A stretch of 64,000 nt of DNA from Halobaculum sp. MBLA0147 (lineage in GTDB: Archaea > Halobacteriota > Halobacteria > Halobacteriales > Haloferacaceae), in the NCBI RefSeq assembly GCF_041361345.1, contig NZ_JBGKAD010000001.1:992001-1056000 (forward strand), read 5' to 3'. Positions within the stretch are counted from its first letter, which is position 1, and every line of letters starts with the position of its first letter. The position numbers and the translations under genes are program-made. Shown here piece after piece: positions 36,942 through 48,179 of the stretch. The notes beneath the pieces were generated by a model. It made no database searches. It saw only the letters and a program-made list of their open reading frames with translations, and was not told the DNA's origin.

Positions 36942-37125
36942 GGCGAGCGGTTCGCGACCGGCGCGTAAGTCCCTGACGGAGCCGTCCGTGGCGGTCCGCG
37001 TCCGTAACACCGGGTCGCGACACGGCGAGTGCCGCGGATCGGCACGACGAGGTAGCGGAGCGACGACGGGCTGGCCGTCGCGGCGAACGCACGGTTTACC
37101 AGCGGACGGCGACTAGCCGTGGGCG

Positions 37126-38220
37126 ATGGCGACCGCAGACGGGACCTGGCGGTACCGCGACCGGTTCGGCGACAGCTTCGGCCGCACGTACTTCCGGCGG
37201 TTCGGCCCCGGTGTGGTCTCCAGTCTCGGCGTCGGGACCTACCTCGGGGCGCCGACGGCCGCCGTCGACGACGCCTACCGAGAGGTGCTGACGACGGCGC
37301 TCGACGCCGGCGTGAACCTGATCGACACCGCCGTGAACTACCGCGCGGGTCGCAGTGAGCGCGTCGTCGGCGACGCACTCGAGGCCAGCGACACCCCGAG
37401 AGAGGCGGTCGTCGTCGCGACGAAGGGCGGGTTCGTCCCGTTCGACGGCGAGCGGCCCGACGACCCCGCCGGGTACGTCCGCGAGCGGTTCCTCGACACC
37501 GGACTGCTCGCGGGCGAGGACCTCGCCCGCGGGAGTCACGCGATCGCGCCCGACTTCCTCGACGCGATGCTCGACCGCTCACTCGACCGGCTCGATCTCG
37601 ACACCGTCGACTGCTACTACGTCCACAACCCGGAGACGCAGCTCGCAGTTCGGGACCGGGCGGCGGTGTACGACCGGCTCGAAGCGGCGTTCGAACTCCT
37701 CGAACGGCGGCGTGCGGCGGGTGACCTGGGTCGGTACGGCGTGGCGACGTGGGACGCACTCCGCGTCCCGCGAGATCACGACGCCCACCTCGACTTGGGC
37801 GAGATTCGCGCGCGTGCCGAGCGGGCGGCGGACACGGTCGGCGTCGACGACCACGGGTTCGCGGCGGTGCAACTCCCGTTCAACGTCCGGATGGCGGACG
37901 CGTTCACCGTCCGGAGTCACACCCACGGCGACGAGCGCGTCTCCGCGCTGGAGTTCGCCCACCGCGAGGGGCTGTCCGTGTTCACCAGCGCCAGCGTCGG
38001 GCAGGGGGAGTTGGCCGACGAGGAGGCGATTCCGCCGGCCGTCGCCGCAGAACTGGAGGGTGACACCCCCGTCCAGCGGGCGATCAACTTCGCGCGCTCC
38101 GCGCCGGCCGTCACTGCGGCGCTGGTCGGGGTTCACGACGTGGCGCACCTCCGCGAGAACGTCGCCGCCGGCACGTTCGACCCGATGGGCGCGAGTCAGT
38201 TCGACGACGTGTTCGAGTGA
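37126..38220 (+). CDS. Aldo/keto reductase
   Basis: 364 residues. A TIM-barrel AKR: SSLGVGTYLGAPT at the N-terminus, catalytic Asp and Tyr in LIDTAVNYRAGRSE, Lys in VVATKGGFVP and His in CYYVHNPETQ. The C-terminal INFARSAPAVTAALVGV matches the NAD(P)-binding segment of AKRs. It is longer than many AKRs and belongs to a group common in haloarchaea. The substrate is unknown. The ATG at 37126 lies 13 bases after a CTAG tetranucleotide, one of few in the window. Convergent with the zinc-ribbon gene. Confidence 0.9.
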   Translation: MATADGTWRYRDRFGDSFGRTYFRRFGPGVVSSLGVGTYLGAPTAAVDDAYREVLTTALDAGVNLIDTAVNYRAGRSERVVGDALEASDTPREAVVVATKGGFVPFDGERPDDPAGYVRERFLDTGLLAGEDLARGSHAIAPDFLDAMLDRSLDRLDLDTVDCYYVHNPETQLAVRDRAAVYDRLEAAFELLERRRAAGDLGRYGVATWDALRVPRDHDAHLDLGEIRARAERAADTVGVDDHGFAAVQLPFNVRMADAFTVRSHTHGDERVSALEFAHREGLSVFTSASVGQGELADEEAIPPAVAAELEGDTPVQRAINFARSAPAVTAALVGVHDVAHLRENVAAGTFDPMGASQFDDVFE

Positions 38221-38442: not shown

Positions 38443-38944
38443 GCGTCCCGGTTGGCGGCGACCGCTGATAAACTCCCCGTCGGGTGGTGGTGTCGGCGGT
38501 CGGGTCGTAGCGAGTGACAGTGCAGGAGATGAGACTATAGATTGGCTTTTCAGGAAATACAAGCGTGTTTGGGCGCATAGACAAGTCAATTTGAGTCCAG
38601 AAATCGGTCGCTATGTCGATTTGATAGGCAGAGTCCTACGCCACCGCCGTGATTAGCGAGATGCTGCTCCTTGTCTACCCGAGCAGAAAGGTGAGGATTG
38701 ACAGCAGTAACGCAGGGAAGATCGATCTCAGCAACGGCGACACCGGTATGACCTTTGACGAGGCCAGAGATATTTCGGCGCAGAACCAAGGCTACGCGTC
38801 AGCTGAAACAGCAGCAGACTCAGACAACTCCAAAATACAACCATTCCAACACTTCATAACTCAACTAGAATTCAACAGCAAGGATAATATAAGACGAGCG
38901 ACTGATCCGGTTTCAACCGGAGGATTGAACTGAAAACTCATCAG
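38443..38944. other. 502-base lower-GC intergenic region
   Basis: From about 38515 the base composition drops sharply, marking the left edge of an accessory island that extends to about 40660. It holds one weak open frame (38649-38933) and otherwise no recognisable gene, tRNA or repeat. The zinc-ribbon gene's promoter must lie in the first 60 bases. Confidence 0.5.
38649..38933 (+). CDS. Doubtful small ORF in AT-rich island
   Basis: 94 codons from a GTG. The translation starts VISEMLLLVYPSRKVRIDSS, has a polar centre rich in Asn, Ser, Asp and Gln, and ends VSTGGLN. No homologue is recognised, and no TATA box is clear upstream. The composition is not like a shadow frame of a GC-rich gene, because no gene is opposite. 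It could be a real orphan or a decayed fragment of mobile DNA. It ends 11 bases before the stop of the convergent lipoprotein gene. Confidence 0.3.
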   Translation: MISEMLLLVYPSRKVRIDSSNAGKIDLSNGDTGMTFDEARDISAQNQGYASAETAADSDNSKIQPFQHFITQLEFNSKDNIRRATDPVSTGGLN

Positions 38945-40426
38945 CTATGGGTGAGGTTCTCCATCCTCCACAGCTAATTCTTCAAAGTCCTCCTTTGTGA
39001 GATTGGTTTGTGTTACTGATTGTAGTCCGTTTTCGTTTACTGAGAATGTGTAATCGAGTCCTCTGCCTCCGTCCCTGTCTTCAAGATTGCCGTTCTGGTA
39101 GTCTTGGTGAACTCTCTCGTTTATTCCGGTGATAACCGATGCTGCTTTCCGCGAATAGTTACCCGGAAAATCATAGCCTTGCTGTATGTCTTCGGTTGAG
39201 GTCACCCATCCGCCTGAATGGTTGTCAAGGAAGCTGTCGTACATCACAGCGCTTCTGGGATCATCTGGCTGGATCAAGAACGCGCCTCGAAGCTCATCTG
39301 CGCCCTCCAAATCATCCTTCTCACCAACCTCCTCATCATTCAAATACAGCACACCATTTCCGTTCTCCAATCCCATACCCGAACCATACAAAATACCAGT
39401 CGCAAACTCGCTTTGACGTAGCTGGGCGGCATCCTCGCTCGGATCAAATTTTTCTGGAAAAAGTCCTGCTACAGTTCCTACGTCTGCTGAGGTCCATCTA
39501 TTAGTATAGTCGTTTGAGATTCTGTCACTAGGATACCTCTTAAAGTGGGGCTCAGTTCCTCCAGTCACTACGTGGTCACCTATCATTATGTCCGGATCTT
39601 CACCATCCAACTCGCAGAACAGTGTATGGTAGGCATCCCTGCTAGGCAGGTTCATCGACGAAAGAAGGAGAGGCCCGGTTGCCTCGGTGTTGTCTCTTTC
39701 AGGATTGTTCAACGCTCCCAAGTTCTCAACCATTCCGTCGACATCGGTATATCTGGCTGATTGCTGGATTACTTCTTTCATCAACCGCGTCCTGTGATTG
39801 TTAAACATGCCTCCCGCGTCCTGCGTTAGTCTGTGCATTCCGTCCCAGACTGTTTGTTCTAGGTCGCGAACGGTGTCTATGTTTTGTATTTCTTGTTCGG
39901 TGAGTATGTCTTGGTAGAAGAAGTCTGTGAAGTCTTTTTCTGTTTCTGATTGTACTTGTTCCGGCAGTTCTTCAAGTGTCACGTCTGCCGGGCCGCCGAC
40001 CAGCACTTCTTCAGTGGTGCCATACTCGTGGTCGGATTTGAGTTGTTCCCAGTAGCTTTGTGTTAGTTGTGCTTTGGCGTAGTATGCTTCTGTTGCGGGG
40101 TCGTGGCTTTTTTCCGGGTTTTCCACGGGGTTTTGCAGTGGCTGCATTTCTGGTGGTAGTGGTTCCGGTGTCTCCGTTTCTGTCTCTGTAGGTGTTTCTG
40201 TGGGTTGTTTTGTGTCTGTAGGTGTTTCTGTGGGTGTTGGTGTGGATTCTGTTTGTGTTGGTGACTCGGTTGGTGAGGGAGTTGGCTCCGGTTGATTGGC
40301 ACCACACCCGCTCACAACTGTGGCAACCCCCGCCAGAACCCGCCGCCGTGACGTACTCGCAACTCTCGATTCGTCAGATTCCCCAGACCCACTCTCAGAA
40401 GTCAAACCTGACGCCCACCAGCGCAT
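38945..40426 (-). CDS. Tat lipoprotein of AT-rich island, unknown family
   Basis: 493 residues from the ATG at 40426. TSRRRVLAGVATVVSGCGAN gives a twin-arginine motif and a lipobox with Cys41, followed by a Thr/Pro/Glu linker (about residues 45-90) built of PTETPT-like units. The main domain (about 95-493) is soluble, with FTDFFYQDILTEQEIQNI, GLLFPEKFDPSEDA-like and GYDFPGNYSRKAASVI segments, and no motif I can name. Many codons end in A/T, unlike the genome. It lies beside a transposase and is probably horizontally acquired. It would be anchored to the outside of the membrane. Confidence 0.8.
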   Translation of the reverse strand: MRWWASGLTSESGSGESDESRVASTSRRRVLAGVATVVSGCGANQPEPTPSPTESPTQTESTPTPTETPTDTKQPTETPTETETETPEPLPPEMQPLQNPVENPEKSHDPATEAYYAKAQLTQSYWEQLKSDHEYGTTEEVLVGGPADVTLEELPEQVQSETEKDFTDFFYQDILTEQEIQNIDTVRDLEQTVWDGMHRLTQDAGGMFNNHRTRLMKEVIQQSARYTDVDGMVENLGALNNPERDNTEATGPLLLSSMNLPSRDAYHTLFCELDGEDPDIMIGDHVVTGGTEPHFKRYPSDRISNDYTNRWTSADVGTVAGLFPEKFDPSEDAAQLRQSEFATGILYGSGMGLENGNGVLYLNDEEVGEKDDLEGADELRGAFLIQPDDPRSAVMYDSFLDNHSGGWVTSTEDIQQGYDFPGNYSRKAASVITGINERVHQDYQNGNLEDRDGGRGLDYTFSVNENGLQSVTQTNLTKEDFEELAVEDGEPHP

Positions 40427-40663
40427 ATGTCATCTTCACAGGCCCACCGCCTGTTAAATCTGTACCTGCTATCGAAGTACACGCCTGATTCCACGGGGTC
40501 CCTAAAATCAAGTACGCCGACCATAGCCGGGTAGGACAAGTCACGGTGTGTTCCCCTGTCCTCCGAGTTTCATGTCAAACCTGTTGCTGTCTGCGATTAT
40601 ACTTTCACTCTACACGGACGTACGCTTATCAGTGATCACGCAGGCATACATGTATGGGCCGGA

Positions 40664-42460
40664 ATGGTCGTGGACCCACGGGTCGAGACAGGCACACCGG
40701 CGGCATCCAGCCGCGAGGCCGCCGAAACCGTGGCCTCGGCCCTCTGCGCGCGCGCCGAACAGGCCGCGCCGACGGCTGACTCGGCCGCTGCTCTTGTCGC
40801 CGATCTCCCGCTGCCGGACTGTGTGACGACACTCGACGACCACGCCCACTACGTGGGCTACGACACAGAACCGGCTGTTCACGTCCTATTGCTCGGTCAC
40901 GCCCTCGGCATCGACGGCAACCACGACCTCCGCCGTCGGCTCCAGCGCGATCCGGTCCTGCTCGGCCAGCTCGGATTCGACACCGTTCCGTCGTCGACGA
41001 CGATCTGGCGGATTCGCACGAAGCGGTTCGACGGCGAGCTGTACGACGCCGTCCGCGAGGCGGCACACCAGATCGCCACCGAGTGCCGCGAGAACGGCCT
41101 TGACGCACCCGGACCGACCCAACCGACGCGAGAACCCACAGACGACCGCGACGGCCGGCTCGGCAGTCAGTCGCCGGTCCTCGCCGAAGCCGACCGCGTC
41201 ACTGACGCCGCCCGGCGCGAGGTCTATCCAGCACTGTCACTCGATAGAGCCGAGAACACTGCTATCGACGAGTCGGCGTTTTGGAGTCTTGCGGCGTACC
41301 TCGGTCTCCAGTCCGACGCCCACGCCAACGCCGGAGCGCGGCGGTACCTCTCCGAGAGCAGCCAGATGACGCCGCTGGGCGATAACTTCCGCGATCAACT
41401 TTCGTCGATCAGCATCGAAGAGCAGCGCGAGCAACTCCGCGACGCCGCCCGGAACATCGTCCTCGAAGCCCAGTCGGAAGGCTACTTGGACCGCGAGGTG
41501 CCGGTCGCTATCGACACGACGACCGGACCACGGTTCTGGGGCGACCGCACGGGCCGCGAGGAGACGATCCTCGGCACGAAGACGCCGAGCGGCGAGTACG
41601 CCCACCACTACGCGACCGTCCAGATCGTCACCGATGACGCGCCCGTGGTTCTGGACGCGCGGCCAGTGAGACTCGGCGAGTCCCGCGACGAGATCGTGGC
41701 TGATCTACTCAACTCCGCGACCGAGATTGTCGCGCCGACGGTCGTGCTGATGGACCGCGAGTTCGATACGCGCGGTGTGCGTGGTGTCTGTGAGACTCAG
41801 GGTCTCCGGTACCTCACGCCCGGCTCTCGCGTCGGCGAGCAGAGCCGGATTGAGCGGTTGGACCGGGGCAACGTCGACATGTTCCGCGACAGCGAGCCAA
41901 GTCTCGCCGGCCCCGACCGCGAAGTTCTCTACCAGCGCGCCGAGTCGGATGAGATTCAGACGACGATCTCCAACAGCTCGGAGGCCGACGAGGACCGCAC
42001 CGAGCAGTCTGACCTCTGGCTACAGCTGGACGACACACTGGACGTGGACCTCGGCGTCGAGGAGAACCAGAAAGAGCGGGCGATGTGGGACGCGCTCGAC
42101 GACATGATGGACGACGACGGCGAAGAGGGCGACGAGGAGACGGCGACGTACTACCTGTGGAAGACTAATCTGAGTCTTCCAAACGAGGACGAAGCGGCGA
42201 TCAACCGTGTCACGCGGCTGTACTCGAAACGCTGGCGGATCGAATCCGGCTACCGGGCCTTGAAGAAGTTCCTGACGCCGACGACCAGTCCGTCGCACGA
42301 ACTTCGGTTCTGGTACTTCTCGTTCGCCTCGCTTCTGTACTCAGTCTGGCGACTTGTCGACGTAATCCTGCGGAAGCAGGAGGGCGTCGAGTCCGATGGC
42401 CCAGTCGTTCCCGCTGCGACAGTCGTGTCGTTCTTGCGCCGGTCCACGGGCGTCGGTTAA
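40664..42460 (+). CDS. DDE transposase, IS4-superfamily type
   Basis: 598 residues. The N-terminal domain has HAHYVGYDTEPAVHVLLLGHA and LLGQLGFDTVPSSTTIWRIR, as in IS4/IS1182-like transposases. The DDE triad is visible: VAIDTTTG (Asp284), LMDREFDTRG (Asp364) and YSKRWRIESGYRALK (Glu527, the YxxRWxIExxYR signature). An acidic stretch, about residues 425-495, is inserted between the second Asp and the Glu. The gene is GC-rich, unlike its immediate flanks. No inverted terminal repeats or target duplication were found, so the element limits are not defined and mobility is uncertain. The protein appears full-length. Confidence 0.85.
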   Translation: MVVDPRVETGTPAASSREAAETVASALCARAEQAAPTADSAAALVADLPLPDCVTTLDDHAHYVGYDTEPAVHVLLLGHALGIDGNHDLRRRLQRDPVLLGQLGFDTVPSSTTIWRIRTKRFDGELYDAVREAAHQIATECRENGLDAPGPTQPTREPTDDRDGRLGSQSPVLAEADRVTDAARREVYPALSLDRAENTAIDESAFWSLAAYLGLQSDAHANAGARRYLSESSQMTPLGDNFRDQLSSISIEEQREQLRDAARNIVLEAQSEGYLDREVPVAIDTTTGPRFWGDRTGREETILGTKTPSGEYAHHYATVQIVTDDAPVVLDARPVRLGESRDEIVADLLNSATEIVAPTVVLMDREFDTRGVRGVCETQGLRYLTPGSRVGEQSRIERLDRGNVDMFRDSEPSLAGPDREVLYQRAESDEIQTTISNSSEADEDRTEQSDLWLQLDDTLDVDLGVEENQKERAMWDALDDMMDDDGEEGDEETATYYLWKTNLSLPNEDEAAINRVTRLYSKRWRIESGYRALKKFLTPTTSPSHELRFWYFSFASLLYSVWRLVDVILRKQEGVESDGPVVPAATVVSFLRRSTGVG

Positions 42461-42809
42461 GACGTTCTTTCTACCGTGTTCGCCCGATTCAGTAGCGACT
42501 GCCATACTGTTCTCCACTTTGTTACCAGATATAATCTAGTTGTGAATATTCGCGGCGGACGAATCGCGTTGTAGAGCGGCTGTTGAGAGGTTCTATCACG
42601 CCACTGGCTCCTGAAACGCACTCTCCGCCGGTGCAAAGCCCTATCGTGTGGACAGTGCGTTCGATATCGCTCGTCGCGGTTTATCCGGCGGGCCGGACCC
42701 GTCGCCGTCGGGGGGTCGACGAGAGCGTGGGCGAACGGTGGAGCGGCCGCTGGCGACGAGCGACGCCAGAACTCACGAGGAGAGAAGAACTGGGAGGTGC
42801 GTCGGCCGC
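42461..42809. other. 349-base region between transposase and metG
   Basis: The first 90 bases are AT-rich, the rest GC-rich. No open frame with genome-like codon use, no tRNA and no convincing inverted repeat match with the left side of the transposase were found. It presumably contains the right end of the element and the metG terminator region. Confidence 0.5.
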
Positions 42810-47032: not shown

Positions 47033-47126
47033 CTAGGCAATTCGAACCGGTACTGCCAGAAGGTCCATCGATGTTTGCGTTGGGAAAACGACGGGTATAT
47101 CCCGGGTCGGGCTAGCGCCTAGGTCG
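47033..47126 (+). promoter_or_regulatory. Core promoter of the CTAG methylase with three CTAG sites
   Basis: TATAT at 47096-47100 lies 27-31 bases before the ATG at 47127, the spacing expected for a leaderless haloarchaeal start. CTAG occurs at 47112-47115 and 47119-47122, between TATA box and start, and again at 47033-47036. CTAG is otherwise very rare in this window. Confidence 0.7.
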
Positions 47127-48179
47127 ATGCGAACCGACGACGCGGCCCCGACGACCACCCACCGAGTGTGTCTCGGGGACGCCAGACGGCTCCCGTTGCC
47201 GGACGACAGCGTCGAGTTGGTCGTCACCTCGCCGCCGTACCCGATGATCGAACAGTGGGACGACCTGTTCGCGGCCCAAGACCCGCGCATCGCGGAGGCG
47301 TTGCAGGCGGGCGAGGGGCCGCGTGCGTTCGACCTGATGCACGGCCTGCTCGACGAGGCGTGGGCGGAACTCCAGCGGGTGCTCGTCGACGGCGGAATCG
47401 CGTGTGTCAACGTCGGGGACGCCACGCGGACCGTCGCCGGCGAGTTCCGGCTGTACCCGAACCACGCCCGCGTCGCGGAGCGGATGCGCGCCGCCGGGTT
47501 CCGCCAACTCCCGGGCGTGTTGTGGCGGAAACCGACGAACGCACCCGCGAAGTTCATGGGGTCGGGGACGCTCCCACCGAACGCGTACGTCACGCTGGAA
47601 CACGAACACGTGCTCGTGTTCCGGAACGGACGGCGACGGTCGTTCCCCGCGAGCGACCCGGACCGGTACGAGGCGTCGTACTTCCACGAGGAGCGGAACC
47701 GCTGGTTCTCGGACCTGTGGGACGGGTTGGACGCCGCCTCGCAGGCCGCCGACGAGGCGACACCCAGAGAGCGGTTAGCCGCGTTCCCGGTGGAGTTGCC
47801 CTACCGACTGATCTCGATGTACTCCGTCTACGGTGACACGGTGTTGGACCCGTTCTGGGGAACCGGGACGACGACGCTGGCGGCGATGGCGGCCGCACGC
47901 GACTCCGTCGGCGTCGAAGTCGAACCGGGACTCCCGACGCAGTTCGACGACCGCGTCGACGGCGTCCGCTCGTGGGCTCAGGAACGGGTCGACAGACGGC
48001 TCGCGGACCACCGCGAGTACGTCGCCGAGCGGGAGGCCACGGAGTACGAGGCCGAACACTACGACTTCGACGTGGTGTCCAGCCGCGAGCGGCGCATCCG
48101 GCTGTACACGGTCGCCGACGTGTCGCGTGTCTCGGGTGGCTACCGGGTCGAACACGAACTCGTCGACGGCAAGCAGTGA
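47127..48179 (+). CDS. zim: CTAG-specific DNA methyltransferase (Zim type)
   Basis: 350 residues. A beta-class amino-methyltransferase: the catalytic TSPPY motif (residues 34-38) comes before the AdoMet-binding motif DPFWGTGTT (about 242-250). SPPY rather than DPPY indicates N4-cytosine methylation. The intervening region has VNVGDATRTVAGEFRLYPNH, LWRKPTNAPAKFMGSGTLPPNAY and EHEHVLVFRNG, which match my memory of haloarchaeal Zim proteins (Haloferax HVO_0794), an orphan enzyme that methylates CTAG. No restriction endonuclease gene is adjacent, supporting orphan status. Specificity is inferred from family resemblance. Confidence 0.88.
   Translation: MRTDDAAPTTTHRVCLGDARRLPLPDDSVELVVTSPPYPMIEQWDDLFAAQDPRIAEALQAGEGPRAFDLMHGLLDEAWAELQRVLVDGGIACVNVGDATRTVAGEFRLYPNHARVAERMRAAGFRQLPGVLWRKPTNAPAKFMGSGTLPPNAYVTLEHEHVLVFRNGRRRSFPASDPDRYEASYFHEERNRWFSDLWDGLDAASQAADEATPRERLAAFPVELPYRLISMYSVYGDTVLDPFWGTGTTTLAAMAAARDSVGVEVEPGLPTQFDDRVDGVRSWAQERVDRRLADHREYVAEREATEYEAEHYDFDVVSSRERRIRLYTVADVSRVSGGYRVEHELVDGKQ

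Follow-up and report, generated by a model that had tools for sequence, protein, structure and literature searches.

A conserved CTAG pair in the core promoter of an archaeal CTAG methylase gene suggests that the enzyme tunes its own production

Why would a DNA methylase gene carry its own enzyme's target, twice, in its core promoter? The zim gene raises this question in the 64-kb stretch of haloarchaeal DNA analysed here, which as a whole we call the window: the interval between its TATA box and its ATG contains two CTAG tetramers, the putative targets of the Zim methylase, and both are kept in each of the four species compared within the genus. The three upstream CTAGs listed in the initial annotation, at 47033, 47112 and 47119, are all confirmed in the sequence, and the latter two do lie, as claimed, between the TATA box (TATAT, 47096-47100) and the ATG at 47127. 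They sit at -15 and -8, downstream of the TATA box, within a box that can be read as the hexamers GCTAGC and CCTAGG around one shared G (Table 1). The assignment of TATA box and start was upheld when set against other genes, since the zim TATA box, at -31 to -26 from the ATG, falls where the A+T content of 684 other promoters peaks; both assignments therefore appear sound for a leaderless transcript. With this spacing the transcript is probably leaderless, which leaves both CTAGs between TATA box and start, probably in DNA that is contacted or melted at initiation. Two further readings of the interval were rejected. Against a coding role or an upstream start for GCTAGCGCCTAG, this genome has no in-frame ATG, GTG or TTG from the stop at -93 up to the zim ATG, and an RNA leader hairpin before zim is unsupported, with a folding z-score of -0.12.

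Table 1. Features of the zim locus, in window coordinates.
Feature	Position	Strand	Remark
Candidate methylation-sensing cis element GCTAGCGCCTAG	47111..47122	+	-16 to -5 from the zim ATG
CTAG pair in the GCTAGCGCCTAG box	47112-47115, 47119-47122		7 bp apart
TATA box region of zim, GGTATATC	47094..47101	+	Leaderless distance from the ATG
Third CTAG upstream of zim	47033..47036	+	At -94
zim, putative orphan beta-class N4-cytosine DNA methyltransferase	47127..48179	+	CTAG by homology; 350 aa

How scarce is CTAG in this DNA? The window holds exactly 17 copies, in agreement with the earlier estimate of about 17. Base composition alone predicts 182, dinucleotide-preserving shuffles give 59 (sd 7.4), and a second-order model gives 32. 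The avoidance holds with each of these null models, although the figure of 150 or more that had been put forward as the expectation fits base composition and neither of the other two. CTAG density, which we took for the genome from 400-kb samples, is 0.20/kb in total, 0.12/kb in sequence called coding and 0.54/kb in intergenic DNA; at this last rate 100 nt would carry about 0.05 CTAG, and the zim upstream region has three. Within the 400 contiguous kb around zim, the pair at 47112/47119 is the sole pair of CTAGs at most 30 nt apart, and the upstream three are the sole trio within 100 nt. Elsewhere in the window, five of the 17 CTAGs (38865, 39528, 39642, 39859 and 42536) fall in the 3.7 kb from 38865 to 42539, with flanks that are AT-rich and accessory-looking.

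The Zim protein matches PF01555 (N6_N4_Mtase, E 1.5e-29), and its translation reads TSPPY ahead of DPFWGTGTT, thus containing both the SPPY and the DPFxGxGTT motif, in an order that we take to mark the beta class. The gene is single copy in its own genome, and 332 of the 391 class genomes carry homologues of it (E <= 1e-40); the protein is about 59% identical to its homologue from Halobacterium salinarum (L087). By sequence and class-wide distribution, zim is a member of the HVO_0794 or group U (PMC6471742) family of CTAG orphan methylases. In Haloferax volcanii, a triple deletion that includes HVO_0794 (zim) is reported to abolish m4C at CTAG, and HVO_0794 is described as an orphan with no known partner nuclease (PMC5867850). 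From homology to this protein we infer that the Zim of the window methylates CTAG at cytosine N4. Its two neighbours, scanned against Pfam and NCBIfam, are a protein without a family match and a VTT-domain protein, neither of them a nuclease, so that zim looks like an orphan methylase.

How strictly is the promoter arrangement kept? The comparison within the genus covers four genomes, one for each of four species and this one included, whose Zim proteins are 71-76% identical to that of the window. GCTAGCGCCTAG is identical at -16 to -5 in all four, the TATA box keeps the same spacing, and the TATA region reads GGATATAT in the other three species. All 12 letters of the box are invariant, compared with 38 of the 116 fourfold-degenerate sites of zim (33%) in the same species, and a run of this length would arise by chance with a probability of about 1.5e-6 per position, assuming independence. 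Pairwise identity of the upstream regions is 15-38% from -100 to -61, 40-70% from -25 to -16 and 100% from -15 to -5. Farther upstream, a CTAG at -93/-94 is present in three of the four species (at -94 in the window and at -93 in two others), in surroundings that cannot be aligned, and one at -49 in two of the four.

Each genome of the genus carries a single copy of GCTAGCGCCTAG, at zim, and the 144 other family genomes searched lack it; CTAGNNNCTAG occurs in two places in the 4.29-Mb genome of the window and in two or three per genome across the genus. With one copy per genome, the box was rejected as the element of a regulon. In the other species of the genus the window's upstream gene was not seen next to zim, which argues that the box belongs to zim and travels with it, and against an operator of this divergent gene; the VTT gene lies on the opposite side of zim in one of the species. 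As a putative cis element that is conserved and zim-specific in this genus, GCTAGCGCCTAG is well supported.

What might such an element do? We favor, at a probability of roughly 55%, a reading in which GCTAGCGCCTAG allows Zim to act back on the transcription of its gene by way of m4C in the part of the promoter that melts. The box would put two Zim targets in DNA that TFB and RNA polymerase contact or melt. With little Zim in the cell, these CTAGs would be unmethylated or hemimethylated; with plenty, they would carry N4-methylcytosine on both strands, and the modification would affect how the promoter opens or how factors bind it, thereby adjusting zim transcription. The sign would most likely be negative, giving a feedback that keeps the amount of this orphan methylase low and steady. 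Conservation of the CTAG pair in four archaea suggests, at the level of sequence comparison, that the enzyme tunes its own production by marking its promoter, and a box that is unique to zim and missing from the 144 other family genomes fits an own-product loop better than a shared regulon. The autoregulatory loop that the initial annotation had sketched thus gains a conserved element, present in four of four species of the genus, which is not general to zim, and the effect of methylation in it is extrapolated from bacterial precedents.

Control of a methylase through its own promoter is documented already in bacterial restriction-modification systems. In CfrBI, as described, the methylase target and the -35 element overlap, and the methylase gene is repressed when the site is methylated (PMC12707154, PMC3978073); in AhdI and LlaDII, promoter methylation is described as controlling the methylase gene (PMC12707154). 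CfrBI resembles zim in that the methylase gene has the target within its core promoter, and differs in being bacterial, with one site on the -35 element and a divergent, overlapping nuclease promoter (PMC12707154, PMC3978073), whereas zim has a TATA/TFB promoter of the archaeal kind with both sites 3' of the TATA box, no partner nuclease among the two neighbors scanned and a methylation effect that is putative. LlaDII and AhdI, which we liken to zim on the basis of a secondary description, share with the proposed loop that promoter methylation affects the methylase gene alone, but belong to bacterial restriction-modification systems with sigma-type promoters (PMC12707154). A limited literature search found no archaeal or orphan methylase that controls itself through its own promoter. 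A target pair that is both conserved and genome-unique in the zim core promoter offers a concrete and cheap test of whether m4C controls archaeal transcription.

Some features of the box speak against methylation sensing. Its G and CGC letters are as invariant as the CTAGs, as they would be in a protein operator, and a dedicated transcription factor might recognize GCTAGCGCCTAG and control zim, with methylation irrelevant or secondary. Invariance of all 12 letters, beyond both CTAGs, would be accounted for in this way, the spacing of the two hexamers fits protein contact, and the interval from TATA box to start is a classic repressor position. However, the box is present once per genome, and no regulator is linked to zim across the genus, so that such a factor would serve a single gene from a remote locus; the same two observations disfavor an ordinary regulon operator. 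A dedicated factor would also leave unexplained that the core of the box is zim's own rare target, twice. We consider it unlikely.

How does the zim promoter compare with others in the same genome? In 23 comparable promoter pairs from this genome and its congener G124, the final 24 nt were compared for their longest conserved run: the median is near 5, and zim has 14, the third highest value; the conserved block by itself is unusual, not unique, and its invariance in four species is the stronger evidence. Among 81 orthologous pairs, 12 CTAGs lie at most 160 nt upstream in this genome, three of them at zim. All three zim CTAGs recur at an equal distance in G124, compared with one of the nine at other genes, and this lone kept CTAG is a stop codon that ends the gene before and overlaps a start. 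A further CTAG of the window, at 37113-37116, sits at -13 relative to a different predicted start, near 37126, and is not kept in G124.

These controls bear on the view that GCTAGCGCCTAG is simply a good proximal or initiator element, the TA steps of its CTAGs aiding melting and their status as methylase targets being incidental. Other promoters do show an A+T peak near -11/-10, and the CTAGs found at the TATA position in other genera (below) follow CTA-type TATA boxes. CTAG is reported to be generally over-represented upstream of Haloferax starts (PMC11001535), which favors such a core-promoter constraint and counts against methylation sensing. Yet 12 invariant letters far exceed a proximal element of two bases, GCTAGCGCCTAG is used nowhere else in the genus, and, the one stop codon aside, no other upstream CTAG among the controls is kept. 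A constraint of this kind strikes us as rather improbable.

Does the arrangement extend beyond the genus? None of the zim promoters examined across the class outside the genus contains the box, and most are without a CTAG within 40 nt of the start, which rules out class-wide conservation of GCTAGCGCCTAG. The claim had been staked on orthologues in related genomes keeping CTAG in the same promoter interval; this is borne out inside the genus, where four of four keep both sites, and fails for the box outside it. A CTAG at most 40 nt from the start occurs in 13 of 166 distinct zim promoters of the class outside the genus, versus 20 of 684 promoters of other genes, and 21 of the 168 zim promoters in the genus-labelled set have one. 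When each genus is represented by a single promoter and that of the window is excluded, CTAG is present in 5.1 of 65 genera versus 1.9 expected (P ~0.04, a value affected by the deeper sampling of Halocatena and Halorussus after matches had appeared there). The class-wide excess is weak, and this, together with the limitation of GCTAGCGCCTAG to one genus, counts against methylation sensing.

Several other genera, whose names are approximate because they were taken from matching named loci, share a CTAG of their own, and we count this sharing in favor of methylation sensing. In Halocatena it stands at -22/-23 in four of four promoters (L264, L265, L266 and L269), immediately 3' of the TATA box in a GAAGRATATWAGTCTAG-like context, and one Halocatena promoter adds a second CTAG at -13, 10 nt on, in an arrangement that resembles the window's. 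Genus g23 has it at -26 (two of two), and genera g65 (two of two) and g46 (three of four) at -27 to -31. In Halorussus, five of nine promoters carry it at -60 to -69, within a TTTCTAGTTAC-like block that precedes the TATA region. Loci of Halorussus type that share this CTAG, at -58 to -69, are L276, L277, L278 and L281 (each 1-361), L055, L078 and L167; in some congeners AAAG or CAAG replaces it. Unlike the zim of the window, the Haloferax-type promoters (L314, L315, L317, L319 and L321, their genus judged from sequence) contain no CTAG. Natrialbales-type zim promoters (L041, L053, L063, L079 and similar ones) have a highly conserved GACGAAGGAGCTAAGGG TATA region, from about -35 to -20, with an unusual CTAA-type TATA box.

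The -27 to -31 interval, picked post hoc, holds a CTAG in 9 of 166 zim promoters of other lineages versus 2 of 684 in the background, and of the CTA words found there, 9 of 74 in zim promoters are CTAG versus 2 of 34 in the background. Because the interval was chosen after the fact and zim TATA boxes are often of the CTA type, this peak does not lend strong support, and CTAGs on the TATA position may in part be a by-product of such TATA boxes. The palindrome AGCT is even more enriched than CTAG in zim promoters, through the same clade inheritance, which calls for caution with pooled promoter statistics. Taken across the class, the GCTAGCGCCTAG box is real and lineage-specific and not a general zim feature, with other genera sharing their own CTAG elsewhere in the promoter. 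That m4C self-regulation is recurrent in zim, its targets having been installed independently in this genus, Halocatena, g23 and Halorussus, is a tentative and somewhat doubtful extension.

Could Zim act on the promoter in a way that does not use the methyl mark as the signal? The enzyme might occupy the unmethylated CTAG pair and repress initiation through its catalytic domain; the target logic and the genomic uniqueness of the box would then be the same as for methylation feedback. In contrast to M.SsoII-type enzymes, in which, as described, an N-terminal HTH of some 70 residues precedes the methylase domain (PMC12707154), Zim has about 10 residues ahead of its catalytic region, and a domain scan recognized no separate DNA-binding or second domain, so that a fused repressor of the M.SsoII type is unlikely. 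Binding should, moreover, be transient once the substrate site is methylated. We regard repression by occupancy as highly improbable.

Methylation feedback at zim would touch on a wider problem, since the role of the widespread haloarchaeal orphan CTAG methylase is described as an open question (PMC6471742). If true, self-sensing through CTAG would be one role of CTAG methylation in Halobacteria. Promoter-borne CTAG targets go without mention in the available excerpts of the family literature (PMC5867850, PMC6471742). In Haloferax lucertense SVX82, CTAG, scarce elsewhere, is reported to be several-fold enriched at most 75 bp upstream of starts, and the methylome study suggested, without proof, a regulatory role for these sites (PMC11001535). 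That enrichment is genome-wide and from one strain, and the excerpted account of it includes neither methylase autoregulation nor conservation across species (PMC11001535). Two zim-like genes per genome were seen in two of the genomes searched, G030 (C2 and C6) and G216 (C1, at two places).
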